Shown here piece by piece: positions 16,092-26,441 of a DNA stretch of 64,000 nucleotides (positions within the stretch are counted from its first letter, which is position 1; each line of letters starts with the position of its first letter). This DNA comes from a virus. The stretch lies in the IMG/VR virus record IMGVR_UViG_3300033149_002333, positions 1 through 64,000 of that record, one strand, 5' to 3'. The translations under genes and the position numbers were made by a program. The notes beneath the pieces were generated by a model. That model worked only from the letters and a program-made list of their open reading frames with translations. It made no database searches and was not told the origin of the DNA.

Positions 16092-16461
16092 GGATATAAC
16101 TATTCACACCGTTTGGAGCTCGGAAGCAGTGACGGGTTCCGCTGGGGTAACCTCGCAGGCTTACGATTTGGGCAATGCCGCCGACAACTTCACTCTTTCG
16201 CTTCAGGTTGAAGTAGCCAACACCGGGGCCTCGTATAGCTTCGATTACACTCTCTCCAACAATGGCACGGATTTTCTGCTGCCGACTGGAAGTAGCTACG
16301 GAGGTTCTATCGTGGCAGGTTTTACTGGAACCTCTGGGCCGAACTCCAATGGCAAGGACATTTTCGCAATTACGCCTGCACTGGGTCGTTACATCAAAGT
16401 TCATGCCAACGAGGTCGGGGCGTCCCCCGGCTACGTCTCGGCATGGTTGGCACTTCAGTAG
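16078..16461 (+). CDS. small virion-type beta protein, paralogue of the 3199 gene
   Basis: A 127-residue protein overlapping the end of the O-antigen ligase-like gene by 14 bases. Its C-terminal half parallels the protein at 3199-3594 (see the shared T-S-G-x-x-S-N-G-x-D-I and T-P-x-x-x-R-[FY] blocks). A jelly-roll-like structural or decoration role is inferred. Confidence 0.7.
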   Translation: MTHARDITIHTVWSSEAVTGSAGVTSQAYDLGNAADNFTLSLQVEVANTGASYSFDYTLSNNGTDFLLPTGSSYGGSIVAGFTGTSGPNSNGKDIFAITPALGRYIKVHANEVGASPGYVSAWLALQ

Positions 16462-16472
16462 GAGATTTGGCG

Positions 16473-18437
16473 ATGCGGAAAGTTATTGCAGTAGTATTGG
16501 CTTGTGTGCTGCTATTTGCTGGGCAGGCGCTTGGCCGGACGGTTTATTTGAGTCTAAGCGACGAAGATAGCCCGGCTTTTGCGGGGTTGGATCTGACTGG
16601 ACTCACGGATGACTACGTGCCTTACGTTGGGGCTGATGGGTTGGCTGATAGTCCTATATCCACGGACGGGTCGGATGTAGCAATCAACTCGTTGACTGCT
16701 AGTCGATTAGTGGCGTCCGACGGCAGCAAGAACCTCACCAGCACTATCACAGAGGCTAACCTTGAAGCCTCTGTGTCCGATATGGCAAACATCATTCAGG
16801 CTGCTGAGATTGATACGTCTGCTAAGTTAGCGGGCATAGTTGGTGATGAAACTGGCAGTGGGGCGCTGGTTTTCGGAACGTCTCCAACGCTTTCTGATTT
16901 GGACTTGAGTGACATCACCGACGGCTACGTCCCCTACGTCACAGCCGGGGGAATGGCTGATAGTCCGATTTATACGGATGGGACGAATGTGGGGATTGGG
17001 ACGACAGGTTTAGGGGGAAAACTGACGATATCGAGTGATGCTTCGTCGCTGAATCAATTCATTAGATTGGAAAATACGGAATCTGGACACGAGAGAAACT
17101 GGATGCTAGGGATTTTGAATGCGAGTTCTGGGGCATTTCGCATTTATGATTTGACAGCAGATACCACTAGATTTTTGATAGACAGCTCTGGCAAAGTCGG
17201 CATCGGAACGACGAGTCCAGACGCAAATTTAGAGGTTGAGGAATCGGCAGCAAGTGAAGGACGTACACTGTTAGAGATAGATGGAGATATAAACAGCGGT
17301 GCGGCAGTTACAAATATTTATGGTGTCAAAGTCGTAACCAGTGTGTCTGACTATGCTGGGGGTACTGACGTCACCAACATGTATGGAGTGTATGTTGATG
17401 ATTCATCGAGCGGTGCCGGTACTACTCTAGGCAATTATTGGGGCATATATGTCCCTGCGGCTGGTACAAGAGTAGGGAATGCTTACGGGGCATATTTTGC
17501 GGACAATGTCGGCATCAATACTAACACGCCCGCAACCAAGTTAGCAGTCAACGGCCTCACCAGCACCTCCAGCTACAATCTCGTCCGCGTAGATACTGCC
17601 GACGGAGACTTCTACTACGACTCCTCCAGCGAACGCAACAAAGAAAATATCCTGGAGTATAGCCCGAGCTTAACCAAGGTGCTAGCCCTCACCCCAGTAG
17701 CCTACACTGATAGCACCTCCGGCCAGCAAGAAATCGGCTTAGTAGCTGAAGACCTGAATGAAATCGACCTAAACGACCTTGTGATTTACAACTCGGAAGG
17801 TGAACCTGACGGCATTAAATACGAACGGTTGAATCTTTTCCTGCTTCAAGCCCTTCGGGAGATGTTGTGGGCTTCACTAGATACTACGCGCAAACAAGCC
17901 ATCAGAAACCAAGTTCGCAAACAATGGCTTCGCCAATGGCGACGAGACAACGCTACCGAAACCGAGATCACTGAAGCGCAGGCCTACGAGGAAACTGGCG
18001 AAACCGAGGAACAAGAAGCATGGGAAGTTCTTCCACGTGAACAATGGGCTGAGGCGATCGAAGACCGAATCGTGGAAGTCGAAGACCGCGAAAACATCAC
18101 AGGCTACGAAGTTGAAACAACCATAGCTGAAGATGGGACGGTAACGGAAACACAGAAACCGATCTACGGAAAGAAACAGGTCATTCGAGGCAAAAAGCTA
18201 AAAGGAGGCTATCGACGCATTAAGGGTCGCAAAGCCGCCGACGGCACTTGGATCGAACGTCCGCGCATTGAAAAGCGCGTTACCACCCAAGTACCCAAGA
18301 AGCGCATAAAACAACGCGTAATTGAGCGCGACGGAAAATTCTACCTCCGCACTCTTCCAACCCTAGAAGAAGCTCAAGCGGCCCTTCAAGCTGCCGGAGA
18401 GGCTTGGAAACCTCAGTGGCTTGCCAACTTGAACTAG
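16473..18437 (+). CDS. tail fibre with Sec-type signal peptide and S74 intramolecular chaperone domain
   Basis: A 654-residue protein. The start at 16473 follows an AGGAGA site. Residues 1-21 (MRKVIAVVLACVLLFAGQALG) form a classic n-h-c signal peptide, odd for a virion fibre. Two repeats follow: T-D-D-Y-V-P-Y-V ... D-S-P-I-S-T-D-G and T-D-G-Y-V-P-Y-V ... D-S-P-I-Y-T-D-G. Fibre shaft motifs GIGTT come next. The S74 endosialidase-chaperone domain is at about 385-465, with the self-cleavage signature SERNKENI, then IGLVAEDLNE, and IKYERLNLFLLQALREM. Unusually, about 185 charged residues follow the S74 domain. S74 domains trimerise the fibre and cut themselves off before the Ser. Confidence 0.8.
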   Translation: MRKVIAVVLACVLLFAGQALGRTVYLSLSDEDSPAFAGLDLTGLTDDYVPYVGADGLADSPISTDGSDVAINSLTASRLVASDGSKNLTSTITEANLEASVSDMANIIQAAEIDTSAKLAGIVGDETGSGALVFGTSPTLSDLDLSDITDGYVPYVTAGGMADSPIYTDGTNVGIGTTGLGGKLTISSDASSLNQFIRLENTESGHERNWMLGILNASSGAFRIYDLTADTTRFLIDSSGKVGIGTTSPDANLEVEESAASEGRTLLEIDGDINSGAAVTNIYGVKVVTSVSDYAGGTDVTNMYGVYVDDSSSGAGTTLGNYWGIYVPAAGTRVGNAYGAYFADNVGINTNTPATKLAVNGLTSTSSYNLVRVDTADGDFYYDSSSERNKENILEYSPSLTKVLALTPVAYTDSTSGQQEIGLVAEDLNEIDLNDLVIYNSEGEPDGIKYERLNLFLLQALREMLWASLDTTRKQAIRNQVRKQWLRQWRRDNATETEITEAQAYEETGETEEQEAWEVLPREQWAEAIEDRIVEVEDRENITGYEVETTIAEDGTVTETQKPIYGKKQVIRGKKLKGGYRRIKGRKAADGTWIERPRIEKRVTTQVPKKRIKQRVIERDGKFYLRTLPTLEEAQAALQAAGEAWKPQWLANLN

Positions 18438-19077: not shown

Positions 19078-19107
19078 GTGTTCACCCAAACCTCGGAGGT
19101 GCCTACA

Positions 19108-19518
19108 ATGCGCTGGCTTATTATACTCCTACTAGCAGGATGTGTAACCACAACCCAAGCTATCCGTCAAACCGAGGAAGAGTTCAAACCTGCAATCTAT
19201 CAATGTGAAGGCAGATGGTATGATATAGTTGTTCCAACTTGCCTGCCGGATAACTTAGCCAACGGAACCCCGGTTATGCCCCCGGATGAGGACCAACTAT
19301 ACCTCATACGCTACACTGTTCCTGGCGACGAACCAGCTCTTATAGTCTTCGATTGGACCCCAGGCGTTTGCGGACCCGAATATATAATCGCAGCCACTTG
19401 CGGGGGCCAAGCCTGGACGCACGGAGACGGCACTTGGCGGCCAGTTGAACGCGAAGCTATCGGTCCTTATCTGCGCGACTATCGCGGCGACGAAGCCGAG
19501 GGAGACTTTCGATTATGA
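19108..19518 (+). CDS. putative lipoprotein
   Basis: A 136-residue protein. The start at 19108 follows GGAGG; a GTG frame at 19078 is less likely. The lipobox L-L-A-G-C with Cys 12 follows a short hydrophobic stretch (MRWLIILLLAG), as for signal peptidase II processing and lipid anchoring. The mature part (RQTEEEFKPAIYQCEGRWYD ... TCLPDN ... CGPEYI ... TCGGQ) has five further Cys, suggesting disulphides and an extra-cytoplasmic location. It overlaps the ExbB-like gene by 4 bases, so it is co-translated. It could tie the ExbB/ExbD-like unit to the outer membrane or act as an o-spanin. Confidence 0.75.
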   Translation: MRWLIILLLAGCVTTTQAIRQTEEEFKPAIYQCEGRWYDIVVPTCLPDNLANGTPVMPPDEDQLYLIRYTVPGDEPALIVFDWTPGVCGPEYIIAATCGGQAWTHGDGTWRPVEREAIGPYLRDYRGDEAEGDFRL

Positions 19519-19958
19519 ATCGACTGCTTAGATGGTGGTTGATGTTCTGCCTCATACTCCTAGCTTCTGCTGGGTTGGCAGTGATGAGATTCGATCAGCA
19601 GTTGCTTCGAGCTGACGTAACTAGGTTGAGTTTCTTTATTTATGGCTTGTTCATGTTTGCCAACCTGCGCTTGTATTACGGCTTGCGAACTAATCGCTTT
19701 GCGAGCGCGGTTTCTTCTGCTTGGCTGGTCGTCAGAATCTCCCCGATTTTTGGGATGATCGGCACGGTCATAGGCTTCATCATCATGCTCCTGGGAGCGT
19801 TCACTGATTTGGACGTATCCAACACCGCCAGCATGAAGCAGGCCCTAACCACTATGGCCATCGGCATGGGTTCGGCTTTATGGACAACTCTAACTGGCTT
19901 AATTTGCAGCGTTGCTCTGCGTATCGAACTTTTCCTACTCGGAGTTGATGATGCGTAA
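19515..19958 (+). CDS. MotA/TolQ/ExbB-like channel protein
   Basis: A 147-residue integral membrane protein with hydrophobic segments at about 7-25, 38-56, 78-97 and 110-142. Residues 75-97 (RISPIFGMIGTVIGFIIMLLG) match the G-L-[IL]-G-T-V-x-G core of the family. Residues 107-132 (MKQALTTMAIGMGSALWTT, then LTGLI) match the A-L-x-T-T-A-x-G block, including the Thr residues that line the ion path. The cytoplasmic loop is much shorter than in ExbB, TolQ or MotA (about 230-290 residues), so it is a minimal version. It is coupled by overlap to an ExbD/TolR-like gene. Together they would form a proton-motive-force-driven complex in the host inner membrane. Confidence 0.8.
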   Translation: MNRLLRWWLMFCLILLASAGLAVMRFDQQLLRADVTRLSFFIYGLFMFANLRLYYGLRTNRFASAVSSAWLVVRISPIFGMIGTVIGFIIMLLGAFTDLDVSNTASMKQALTTMAIGMGSALWTTLTGLICSVALRIELFLLGVDDA

Positions 19959-20574
19959 CAACACCGCGTTTTTGGATTTGATGCTTAATTTGTGCTTGGG
20001 TATATTCACCCTATTTGCTATAGCGTTTTTCTCGATTCAAGTCGAGCAGAGCAAAGCTGATGTGAAACTCAAAGCCGAATTTGTCATCGTCGCTACCTGG
20101 CCCAAGGAACTGACTAGCGACGTCGATCTCTGGGTGGCTGATCCGGCTGGCAATACGATGTATTATGGCAACAAAGAATCAGGAATGATGCACCTCGACA
20201 GGGACGATCTGGGAAACGTAAACGATGTCATAACCCTCCCTTCCGGGCAGAAAATTGAATGTTCCACAAATCAGGAAGTAGCTACAATCCGCGGCATAAT
20301 TCCTGGGGAGTGGATTGTAAACGTTCACCTGTTCCGCTGGGACGGACGAGACCCTATTCCGGTGACGGTGCGCATAGACGACCTGAATCCGAAGGTGACT
20401 AGAGTGGCCGAAAAGACTGTCAACTTGCTCAACTACGGCCATGAGATAACCATAACTAGAATGTTGGTTAGTGCCTCCGGGGATGTTTTAAGCCTCGACC
20501 CAACCCCCAAAGAACTTTGTAGAATGCAATGGTTAAACCGCAACACTAGCTCAACTGGAGACCACGGAATATGA
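19951..20574 (+). CDS. ExbD/TolR/MotB-like protein with beta-sandwich periplasmic domain
   Basis: A 207-residue protein starting inside the end of the ExbB-like gene; GGAG is 6 bases before. One N-terminal membrane helix (residues 7-30) begins FLDLMLNL, closely matching ExbD's FIDVMLVL around its essential proton-carrying Asp; here that residue is Asp 9. The periplasmic part (about 40-170) differs from ExbD or TolR. It has T-W-P-K-E-L-T-S-D-V-D-L-W-V-A-D-P-A-G then H-L-D-R-D-D-L-G-N, a D-x-D-L-x-V-x-D-P-x-G / D-x-D-x-G pattern like the DUF2135 or calcium-binding sandwich family. A swapped output domain suggests a new target for the motor. Confidence 0.8.
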   Translation: MRNNTAFLDLMLNLCLGIFTLFAIAFFSIQVEQSKADVKLKAEFVIVATWPKELTSDVDLWVADPAGNTMYYGNKESGMMHLDRDDLGNVNDVITLPSGQKIECSTNQEVATIRGIIPGEWIVNVHLFRWDGRDPIPVTVRIDDLNPKVTRVAEKTVNLLNYGHEITITRMLVSASGDVLSLDPTPKELCRMQWLNRNTSSTGDHGI

Positions 20575-21128
20575 TCGGCGCCGGACATCTAACCTTAGCT
20601 GTCGCGTACACCATGCTAGCTGCAATAACCGGCTGGTTGCTGAGCGGTAGAGCAGTTCGAACCTTTCACCGCGCCCTGCTTATTCCTTTGCTGGTTTGGT
20701 TTGGCTTGGTACTGCTTTACGTACCTAACCACCTTCTAGGCTGGCCAACCAACGAGGAGCCTGTCGAAGAGCTATACATGGTAGGCTATTCCATAGGCAA
20801 ACTTGCAAGCGCCATCTACATTTGGGGTATTCCACTCCAAGGAGACGAAACAGCTAGTTGGTGGGTTCTAGGTTATTCCCCCGAAGACCCACAAGCTCCG
20901 CGAGCTTACAAAATCCCCTATTACAGAGCTTTGCACAAAGCCCTCGAACAGTGGCGACTCGGCAAAAGTCAAAAAGGAATCCCGATTTTGCGGAACGTAG
21001 GCAAAAAACAAAAAAGCAAACGCAAACTAGCCGACACCGGTTCTTCGAAATGGAAAAGCGAACAATACGAATTCTTAGTCCTAAACCCTAGAAACATTCT
21101 ACCACCTAAACAAATACCTCAACCCTGA
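20571..21128 (+). CDS. membrane protein of the ExbB/ExbD-like operon
   Basis: A 185-residue protein beginning in the ATGA overlap with the ExbD-like gene. Two hydrophobic segments (about 5-25 and 34-56) and perhaps a third (about 72-90) are followed by a strongly basic cytoplasmic-type tail (KSQKGIPILRNVGKKQKSKR). No family recognised. Operon overlap implies a third component of the same system. Confidence 0.65.
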   Translation: MIGAGHLTLAVAYTMLAAITGWLLSGRAVRTFHRALLIPLLVWFGLVLLYVPNHLLGWPTNEEPVEELYMVGYSIGKLASAIYIWGIPLQGDETASWWVLGYSPEDPQAPRAYKIPYYRALHKALEQWRLGKSQKGIPILRNVGKKQKSKRKLADTGSSKWKSEQYEFLVLNPRNILPPKQIPQP

Positions 21129-23020: not shown

Positions 23021-23557
23021 ATGGGACAGCGAAGGCTCAAAAACGAGGATCATGACAGGTTAGTAAATCGTGATTCCAAAGGCCAGCATTCGGCTAAAGC
23101 AATACAGTTCAACCCCACCGGGGGAGTGTTTAGTACGGATGTTCAGGCAGCAATTCAGGAGCTTGATAGAAAAAAGTTAGATACCAATTTCGGCAATTTA
23201 GCCAGCGTTGCTTGGGCACTGGCCGCGTTGGGGATTACGGTATGGGAGTCTGAGAGCGATACGATAAGTGGGGGAGCGACTACACTCAACAGCACCGCTT
23301 GGAATGTTACTTACACAATCGACACCGAAGGCGGGGCTGGTTCGGATGATCTGGCTACGATAAACGGCGGAGTGGAGGGGCAGAAAGTTTATATTCAAGC
23401 AGCTAACGACGCCAGAACGGTCGTAGTCAAAGCCGGAACTGGCAATATATATATGCGAACGGATTTTTCCTTGGATAATACGAAGGATAAGCTAGTTTTG
23501 CTAAACATCGGAGGTTCCGAGTGGCATGAGGTTTCGAGGGTTAGTAACGGGAGTTAG
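23021..23557 (+). CDS. fibre-associated structural protein
   Basis: A 178-residue protein. Residues 36-52 (GGVFSTDVQAAIQELDRKK) form the short coiled coil usual in fibre neck regions. A beta-rich C-terminal domain ends in VLLNIGGSEWHEV. Its 3' end overlaps the next gene's start by 32 bases. Structural role inferred from composition and place. Confidence 0.7.
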   Translation: MGQRRLKNEDHDRLVNRDSKGQHSAKAIQFNPTGGVFSTDVQAAIQELDRKKLDTNFGNLASVAWALAALGITVWESESDTISGGATTLNSTAWNVTYTIDTEGGAGSDDLATINGGVEGQKVYIQAANDARTVVVKAGTGNIYMRTDFSLDNTKDKLVLLNIGGSEWHEVSRVSNGS

Positions 23558-26441
23558 TATAATAGGCTTGTTCGTGCTGCTGGTTTGGGTTGGCTGGACC
23601 ATCGGCGCTGCGGGCGATCCAGCTATTGAAGGGGTTAGTGAAGTCGAAGATTTTGCCACTTCGGGGGCTGCTGGAACAGCGCCACTTAGCGATGGGGCTA
23701 GTGGGTTGAGTATGACGGATGTGCTTACGGAGGATGAGCTAAACTCCGAGGCCGAACTCGAAGCCCAACTAGCCGATGTGTCGGACGTCTATACGGACAA
23801 CGACGTCGACTTCATAACTGCCGACGATATGGCAGATGCCGATCACGGAGATGTCAGTTGGTCTAGTGGTGTTGCATCAGTGGAGGACCTAACCATTTCC
23901 GGAGAAACTCAGGGTGACGTTCTCTACTTTAATGGATCGAACTGGGTGCGCCTCGGTATAGGTGCCGCTGGACAGGTCCTTGAGGTCAACGCAGGTGGAA
24001 CGGCCCCGGAGTGGGATACGGACGATTCGGCAGCAGGTGGCGGAAACGATGTCTACATAGAAGAGGGAGACGCTGCTAGGGTGGACTCGACCAGTGCGGA
24101 TCTTTATTTGGACTTCGATGACAGCGACTTTGATGTTGGCGTTGCGGGTAATGAAGCTAATATTACGATAAACGTAGGTCCGAACCAAATGTCCGATGCC
24201 GACCACGGAGACGTGGCCTGGTCCGGCGGAGTGGCTTCCGTACAAGCAGTGCAAAACAATTCCGTTGATCTAGGCACCGACACTGTTGGGAATTACGTAG
24301 CCACTGTTGCCGACGGCACGGGGATAGACGGTACAGCTTCCGGGGAAGGTTCAACCTACACGCCTTCTTTCGATTCGACAGAACTAGGCAACTTGGTCTG
24401 GGGAGACAACTCCCAAGCAACAATCAGCTGGCTTTTCTCGCTAACTGGAGGAAACGACCCAAGTATTTTATTCTCTGATAACAAAATAACGTACTATTCG
24501 ACGTTCGAACTCAACAGTACTGCACCTAGCATAACTCTTTACGAAAACGACACGAACGATTACTGGTATCGCAGTACAGTAAACAGCGGACTCCTTGTTA
24601 TAGGTTACGACGAAGACCGCGATGGAGCGTTTACTCCAGTAACCAATGTTCTAACCTTCTATCCTGCTGATATTACTACTACAGACGACCGCATAGTAAT
24701 AGGCAGCGGGTCCTCGAAGTCTAATACAGACTTTTCTTTGGCTTTTGATACTGATACTGAAGATTATTTCTTCGGTTATGACGATTCCCAAGATAAGTTC
24801 ATATTCGGTTCGGCTGGAGCTGCATACAACATTGGTGATTACGATAGGCGCTATCTTACTGCCCAAATTTCAACTAATGACGACGGTTACATTTTGGGAA
24901 ATGCTAACGTCTTCGTTCCCCAAATGTTTGGCCCAATAGATCCAACGGACGACGCGGCAAACACGGACGATACTGCTATACAGGCCGCGATCGACGCAGC
25001 TGAGGCTTCGATCATTAACTACGATGGGTCTCCTGCAGTAGTGTTTTTACCTCCAGGTTATTATAATATAGATGCCGGGCTTACCATTTCTAAGGGTATA
25101 CATCTCATTGGGTCTGGGAAATCCTCTAGTGTAATAAAGTCTGATATAACCGCCGATCATGTAATTACGGTGGATAATGGTGCCGCCGGTTCGGTGGTGG
25201 GTTACGGCAAAGTTGCCAACTTGTCTATTGCGACAACGGTTGAGAACGACGGAAAGGCTTTGTTGTATATGGTTGAGCCCTTTCACTATACGATTGAGAA
25301 CGTGTTCCTTGGAAACGGGTCTTACGGAATCTACTTAGACGATCCGGACTGGGTAACGGTAAATAAAGCATTTATCTATTACGATGGTGCTGTACATGAC
25401 AACGCAGACCCCGCGAACGCAGGGATTTACATAACTGCGAACGACAGTGCAGATCACCCGAATGTACGGATACAAGACTCCGAGATAAATGGAGGTAGTG
25501 GGGCGTCTCCTGAAAGAGTTGTTAACTACTGTATCAGAATAGGTGGTGCGGATGGCATATGGATAAGCAACACCCACATGTATTTTGCCAAATTGGCCAA
25601 CATATATGCAAGGGCTGATGGAGTTGATTATTGGCTAAATGGAATCCTCGTTGACAACTCGTGGATAGAAAAGGCTGGGCAGTATAACTTTCTTCTCAGT
25701 GACAGTACTGCTACTGTTCGTGCTACCTATTACAGCATTTCCAACAGTGTTATGGACGGTGGTGAGGTAACGCAGTTTGGAGTGTATGTGGATCATTCCA
25801 GCCTGGAGACGTTCGTCATTTCAGACAACGTAATAAAGTCCCATGATTACGATGGTATTCAGATAGCGGATACGTCGGCTAGCGCAGAGGTAGTCATTAT
25901 CGGAAACGTCATAGCGGGACACTCCGAGGCTGGAGAAGACGGGATCGACATAGGTGAAGCGTCCATTGACGAAATCGTAATCTCCGACAACGTGTTCAGT
26001 GACAACGATGAAAACATCGAATGGCCGTCTGTGGGGCAAGAGGCGGATATTGTAGTTGCTAACAACGTCAACGAGGATAGTCACGGACTAACTAGGAAAA
26101 TCATTCCAATCACCTCTGGTTCTTCCAGAAACGTCGCAGCGTACGAAAGCGGGGCGTTGTTTTCTGTCAATTCGAGTTATGCGGGGTTGGTAACTCTAAC
26201 CCTTCCGGCAGATCCGACTGGGTTGTATTATACCTTCTGCAACGCAAATTCTTCGTACTCACTTCGCATAGACGGCAACGGTGCTGATACAATAGCTGGT
26301 GTACTAGCTGGAAGCGCCAGCACTACCGCAGCCGACATAGACATAGACACTGCTGGAGCGTGCGTTACGCTGGTCGGAGTCAACTCGGCAGGATGGGGAA
26401 TAGTAGCAGCAACAGGCGACTCTGGGGATTATACATTTTAG
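23526..26441 (+). CDS. large tailspike with parallel beta-helix and N-terminal hydrophobic segment
   Basis: A 971-residue protein. Residues 1-30 (RFRGLVTGVSIIGLFVLLVW) look like a signal anchor, which is odd for a virion spike. Fibre linkers follow: two D-A-D-H-G-D-V-[SA]-W-S-x-G-V-A-S-V repeats and G-D-V-L-Y-F-N-G-S-N-W-V-R-L-G. From about 465 the pectate-lyase-type beta-helix starts: D-D-T-A-I-Q-A-A-I-D-A-A-E, V-V-F-L-P-P-G-Y-Y-N-I, then H-L-I-G-S-G-K-S-S-S-V-I, and many repeated strands. This fold is typical of glycan-degrading or glycan-binding spikes. The Gly/Ser-rich C-terminus would trimerise. Confidence 0.85.
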   Translation: MRFRGLVTGVSIIGLFVLLVWVGWTIGAAGDPAIEGVSEVEDFATSGAAGTAPLSDGASGLSMTDVLTEDELNSEAELEAQLADVSDVYTDNDVDFITADDMADADHGDVSWSSGVASVEDLTISGETQGDVLYFNGSNWVRLGIGAAGQVLEVNAGGTAPEWDTDDSAAGGGNDVYIEEGDAARVDSTSADLYLDFDDSDFDVGVAGNEANITINVGPNQMSDADHGDVAWSGGVASVQAVQNNSVDLGTDTVGNYVATVADGTGIDGTASGEGSTYTPSFDSTELGNLVWGDNSQATISWLFSLTGGNDPSILFSDNKITYYSTFELNSTAPSITLYENDTNDYWYRSTVNSGLLVIGYDEDRDGAFTPVTNVLTFYPADITTTDDRIVIGSGSSKSNTDFSLAFDTDTEDYFFGYDDSQDKFIFGSAGAAYNIGDYDRRYLTAQISTNDDGYILGNANVFVPQMFGPIDPTDDAANTDDTAIQAAIDAAEASIINYDGSPAVVFLPPGYYNIDAGLTISKGIHLIGSGKSSSVIKSDITADHVITVDNGAAGSVVGYGKVANLSIATTVENDGKALLYMVEPFHYTIENVFLGNGSYGIYLDDPDWVTVNKAFIYYDGAVHDNADPANAGIYITANDSADHPNVRIQDSEINGGSGASPERVVNYCIRIGGADGIWISNTHMYFAKLANIYARADGVDYWLNGILVDNSWIEKAGQYNFLLSDSTATVRATYYSISNSVMDGGEVTQFGVYVDHSSLETFVISDNVIKSHDYDGIQIADTSASAEVVIIGNVIAGHSEAGEDGIDIGEASIDEIVISDNVFSDNDENIEWPSVGQEADIVVANNVNEDSHGLTRKIIPITSGSSRNVAAYESGALFSVNSSYAGLVTLTLPADPTGLYYTFCNANSSYSLRIDGNGADTIAGVLAGSASTTAADIDIDTAGACVTLVGVNSAGWGIVAATGDSGDYTF

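Follow-up and report, generated by a model that had tools for sequence, protein, structure and literature searches.

A conserved three-gene cassette of phages and Proteobacteria that may encode an ion-driven inner-membrane motor with a beta-sandwich output domain

Three overlapping genes on the plus strand lie downstream of a tail-fibre gene in a virus. We analysed a window of 64,000 nucleotides (positions 1 to 64,000 of the 66,975-base virus contig IMGVR_UViG_3300033149_002333), which elsewhere encodes a portal protein, a DNA polymerase, a primase, and tail-fibre-like proteins, and in which no RNA families or tRNAs were found. Gene A (19515..19958) encodes a 147-residue putative pore protein of the MotA/TolQ/ExbB family with about four transmembrane (TM) helices. 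Gene B (19951..20574) encodes a putative stator-type partner of 207 residues, and gene C (20571..21128) a protein of 185 residues with two predicted TM helices that is the constant third partner of A and B. Genes A and B overlap by 8 bp at 19951, and the stop codon of B overlaps the start codon of C (ATGA at 20571). The start codon of A is likewise overlapped (ATGA at 19515, suggestive of translational coupling) by the stop codon of a lipoprotein-like gene (19078..19518, plus strand, lipobox LLAGC). The reading frames and overlaps of A and B agree with a preliminary description of this locus, which was made from the sequence alone. The cassette reading frames are conserved, which excludes chance open reading frames.

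The lipoprotein-like gene is not a conserved part of the cassette. It had no homologue in the other A-B-C loci compared, so the earlier placement of a lipoprotein in the unit was not upheld, and a lysis operon that includes this gene was rejected for the same reason. The product has a weak spanin match (phrog_6073, E = 9e-4). Long tail-fibre-like proteins are encoded at 16443-18437 and 23526-26441; in the middle of the first of these is a Peptidase_S74 chaperone domain that scores below threshold, and about 190 residues, most of them charged, follow it.

Judged by its sequence, the product of gene A is a true MotA/TolQ/ExbB homologue. It matched Pfam family PF01618 with E = 1.7e-8 and 34.7 bits (cut-off 22.9), as did 10 of its first 11 relatives. 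Profiles of the gene A family matched TolQ, ExbB, MotA, PomA, and ZorA chains in the PDB, including 8gqy and 8bri (flagellar stators MotA-MotB / PomA-PomB), and in the reverse direction the gene A profile found canonical TolQ/ExbB-type proteins with E-values down to 3e-11. These matches bear out the family core recognised in the preliminary description from the motifs GMIGTVIG (residues 80-87) and TTMAIGMG (112-119). A more diagnostic motif in TM4 is ALWTTLTGL, which contains T125. In the phage collection, canonical TolQ matches fell mostly on bacterial-looking contigs labelled phage; an exception is Moraxella phage Mcat3, which has a partial match. CAKLQF and CAKLQH (Acinetobacter phage MD-2021a) are apparently bacterial contigs of this sort, with several tolQ/exbB copies.

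The TM3/TM4 motif with its predicted pore-lining threonines is conserved in gene A. The conserved residues are G83, T84, G87, T125, and G128; the GTVWG of TolQ (T145) aligns with G83/T84, and the ATAIG (T178) with T125. Thr84, in the GTVIG motif (19764..19766, plus strand), is Thr in 104 of 119 viral and 85 of 87 bacterial sequences. Thr125 (19887..19889, plus strand) is Thr in 98 of 119 viral sequences, the others having Asn or Ser, and in 85 of 87 bacterial ones. Some phage A proteins have Asn in place of Thr at these two positions. The median length of phage A proteins is 154 residues, versus 217 for the bacterial proteins and 230 for TolQ, and the difference lies mostly in the TM2-TM3 loop and the N-terminus, so the word "minimal" in the preliminary description fits gene A. 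The cytoplasmic domain is almost absent, and coupling may therefore differ from that of known motors.

Gene B is predicted to encode a single TM helix with a conserved Asp, followed by a beta-sandwich. The AlphaFold model (mean pLDDT 90.1) has one helix at residues 4-35 and then the sandwich, which is probably periplasmic. The motif FLDLMLNL, with Asp9, is followed in the sequence by DVDLWVADPAG, and B has the layout of an axle-type protein, in which the one TM helix at the N-terminus has an Asp close to its start. The family is conserved over more than 220 sequences. Asp9 (19975..19977, plus strand), at the head of the helix and a candidate for carrying the ion, is Asp in 218 of 221 sequences (124 of 126 viral and 94 of 95 bacterial), the rest being alignment gaps. 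Alignment of B with canonical ExbD/TolR by hhalign covered the TM helix only (E = 0.032, probability 1.6%, not significant by itself), and it placed Asp9, weakly, in exact register with the TolR/ExbD Asp, the position that had been proposed for it.

B is not a direct member of the ExbD/TolR family. The PF02472 profile matched none of 65 B proteins, and this ruled out direct membership, although the layout of B seems built to that of the ExbD/TolR working unit. The ExbB/ExbD-like pair of the preliminary description is thus supported by the homology of A; for B there is no ExbD profile match, and a constant third gene, C, has to be added. Similarly, the claim of a swapped periplasmic domain stands in that B has a different domain, but the label DUF2135 does not. 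PF09906 (DUF2135, cut-off 22 bits) gave no hit for the window B and only two matches of E about 0.03 among the 65 B proteins (best E = 0.032), and we rejected this identity. The likeness to DUF2135 is one seen by eye, DxDLxV...P.G at the start of the sandwich, and no DUF2135 proteins for comparison were found in 58 related genomes.

The beta-sandwich (20080..20502, plus strand) has seven residues that are 100% conserved: W50, D57, D59, D85, D86, G88, and E109. R84 is Lys in four homologues. To judge from the residues themselves, the invariant set may be a site that binds a metal or a ligand. No Pfam family, DUF2135 included, fits the sandwich, no similarity to OmpA was found in gene B, and a PDB fold search with the B model gave no match at E < 0.001 (the top TM-scores, about 0.1-0.3, are meaningless). 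The viral fold library gave weak partial matches of the domain to large uncharacterised phage proteins (BFVD S0A5K4 and I7JBZ3), and the domain was also weakly matched inside larger bacterial proteins (G160 and G192). This pattern suggests that the B-type sandwich is used elsewhere too.

The conserved unit is A-B-C, three genes rather than the pair first described. To locate cassettes we scanned DNA for a motif of B alone, which makes A and C independent evidence, and we counted linkage where a locus had 1 kb or more of flank. Among the matches listed, 110 of 112 viral loci and 94 of 99 bacterial ones had A upstream of B on the same strand. C was downstream of B, again on that strand, in 109 of 111 viral loci and in 88 of 96 from bacteria. 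Linkage thus held in about 98% of the viral loci with flank and in about 92-95% of the bacterial ones. The model of gene C (pLDDT 79) has two TM helices, a small alpha/beta domain, and a flexible tail, and no significant Pfam or PDB match to C was found, the fold search giving nothing at E < 0.001. The loop between the helices is basic, which by the positive-inside rule suggests that both termini, and with them the small domain, are periplasmic.

The cassette is found in phages and in bacteria. The preliminary description had named homologues in other phages as decisive support, and the scan found more than 100 loci in IMG/VR, which is a lower bound. Among isolate phages there were 21-28 records per query, nearly all of them Rhizobium and Sinorhizobium phages: Pootjesviridae (RHph_N34 and P10VF), the 68-kb RHph_N3_13 group, RHph_I1_18, and temperate phage 16-3 with its relatives AP-16-3 and NV1.1.1. 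Virulent-type T4-like phages also have it. The genes are annotated in isolates as "hypothetical" or by number only; the orthologues in 16-3 are p038 (A, E = 7e-18), p040 (B, 4e-48), and p042 (C, 5e-22). The cassette of Pootjesviridae lies among gyrase, sigma-factor, and clamp-loader genes, and that of 16-3 is within a few kb of immX, in a region of immunity genes. The bacterial scan gave at least 120 stretches with the cassette motif. In evenly drawn genomes, B was matched in 27 of 190 from the class of Denitrobaculum (22 at E <= 1e-49) and 22 of 185 from the class of Neptuniibacter, the class names being taken by inference from the organisms at the centre of each sample. About 12% of the sampled Alpha- and Gammaproteobacteria have the cassette, so it is not phage-specific, as it had been framed. 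Prophages account for some of the bacterial loci (for example, L196), and no larger conserved operon was found around the cassette in bacteria. On the B tree, viral and bacterial labels switch only about five times, which indicates that the cassette is old in both and rarely exchanged; the window falls in the mostly viral half. No description of the A-B-C cassette was found in the literature searched, an absence that is no proof, and we regard the cassette as real, well conserved, and under-described.

Two kinds of gene recur next to the cassette in phages. The commonest neighbour on the same strand was a secreted trypsin-like protease (PF13365), which was within about 2.1 kb in 21 of 120 viral loci among the matches listed and was present in four early loci as well (at 2.6 kb in one of them), either upstream of A or downstream of C. 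The second, an SbmA/BacA peptide importer (PF05992, E down to 5e-138), was near the cassette in 13 viral loci, nearly always just after C. By parsimony on the tree, the protease needs about 11 changes and SbmA six, so neither was inherited as one block. A reverse test gave a modest result: of 80 phage loci with SbmA, 8 had A-B-C adjacent. Some relatives (L009, for example) have a putative cell-wall hydrolase close to the cassette. The window itself has neither a protease nor an SbmA/BacA neighbour. The phage-encoded trypsin-like proteases beside A-B-C, which are secreted or lipoproteins, include those at L104:5707-6507 and L054:9651-9941 and p036 of 16-3 (L261:4256-5155). SbmA/BacA genes are very common in phage contigs (at least 192 contigs, 88-94% identity; for example, L080:2482-3471, L085:949-1932, and L262-L341).

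Known ion-driven motors of the 5:2 kind serve motility, the import of nutrients, the stability of the envelope, and defence, and the cassette resembles several of them in part. With TolQ-TolR(-TolA) and ExbB-ExbD(-TonB) it has in common the TM3/TM4 core and threonines of A, a partner whose one TM helix is headed by an Asp, and, as in the order tolQ-tolR-tolA, a third membrane gene in last place. It differs in the short A protein with almost no cytoplasmic domain, in the beta-sandwich of B instead of the ExbD/TolR domain, and in C, where two TM helices and a compact domain take the place of the single TM helix, long linker, and C-terminal domain for binding an outer-membrane partner that mark TolA/TonB-type transducers. 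The four-TM layout of A and its G.IGT..G and TTL.G motifs are those of MotA-MotB and PomA-PomB, but the cassette lacks the torque-generating cytoplasmic domain, the OmpA-like peptidoglycan-binding domain, and the flagellar gene linkage of these stators. The generic ion transporters (GIT class) of a 2025 motor classification (PMC12505986) are also similar in that they are motors outside the flagellum to which varied domains are appended; phage-encoded motors are not mentioned in the passages found there.

We think it likely that A and B assemble into an inner-membrane motor of the 5:2 class driven by ion-motive force. The motor assignment is supported by homology, and the original observation is confirmed, whereas its interpretation is supported in part. 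In such a motor, A would form a pentameric ring with the conserved TM3/TM4 threonines lining its channel, a dimer of B would be the axle, and Asp9 would carry the ion (proton or sodium). Ion flux would presumably cause rotation, and the part moved would be the periplasmic beta-sandwich, in place of a peptidoglycan-binding or ExbD/TolR domain. C, which is encoded third as tolA is after tolQR, may couple to B or regulate it in the periplasm.

We lean, with modest confidence, towards a broader reading in which A-B-C is an undescribed class of 5:2 motor driven by proton-motive force, with a beta-sandwich output and a dedicated third subunit. On this reading, tailed phages and Proteobacteria have the motor in common, and it would supply phages with the power for a process in the periplasm, such as protein or peptide turnover or envelope guarding, during infection. 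Phages would most likely use it to alter or maintain the periplasm or envelope of the infected or lysogenised cell. The recurrence of a trypsin-like protease or SbmA/BacA suggests that the process is tied to the handling of periplasmic proteins or peptides, or to envelope guarding. Taken by itself, the peptide-handling role seems to us less likely than not; the theme rests on neighbours that only a minority of the phages have, and marine phages commonly carry SbmA.

The cassette might instead guard the cell, in a manner functionally like Zorya, by sensing or altering the envelope against incoming phages or bacteriocins. ZorA was the curated model matched most often by A (32 of 50 members) and often the best one, the cassette of temperate 16-3 is in an immunity gene region, and the cassette is common to phages and bacteria. 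However, the window A matched ZorA weakly (E about 1e-3, with scores far below the curated cut-offs; relatives down to 2.3e-8), and such low scores probably reflect the shared motor core. The cassette is without the long ZorA tail, ZorB and its peptidoglycan-binding domain (the domain of B is a beta-sandwich), ZorC/D or other adjacent Zorya genes, and a nuclease effector; PADLOC gave no match for B or C. Virulent-type T4-like phages are also carriers. We consider a guarding role on its own unlikely. An auxiliary module that raises import driven by proton-motive force during infection is unlikely to a similar degree. The SbmA/BacA importers beside the cassette would fit it, as would a proposal that an annotated ExbB of Lentisphaerae phages is an auxiliary gene (PMC11361711), which means that a phage with ExbB is not wholly without precedent, but the cassette has no linked TonB or outer-membrane receptor partner and B has no ExbD periplasmic domain.

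A role in lysis, in which a motor or proton leak depolarises the membrane or breaks the outer membrane late in infection, is quite improbable. The position of the window cassette after a tail-fibre gene and beside a lipoprotein with a weak spanin match, and the hydrolase near some cassettes, would fit such a role. However, the stand-alone cassette is kept in free-living bacteria, lies among replication genes in Pootjesviridae and near immX in 16-3, and adjoins a lipoprotein that is not conserved, all of which argues against a dedicated lysis function. Our best reading is that it acts in the periplasm and not mainly for lysis. Least probable of all is a static membrane scaffold in which A is no longer an ion motor, as its near-absent cytoplasmic domain and the Asn found at the two threonine positions in some phage proteins might suggest, since Asp9 and the pore Thr/Gly set are kept across very divergent phages and bacteria.

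If the motor reading is true, many different tailed phages equip the envelope of the cell with a proton-powered machine of viral origin. The cassette is unnamed in about one-eighth of the sampled Alpha- and Gammaproteobacteria, so that solving its function would explain a widespread bacterial system too. Its presence in Sinorhizobium meliloti phage 16-3 makes the question accessible to ordinary phage genetics. In four identical contigs (L002-L005), B appears to lack the TM Asp while A and C are still present, which provides a natural test of the dependence on this residue.
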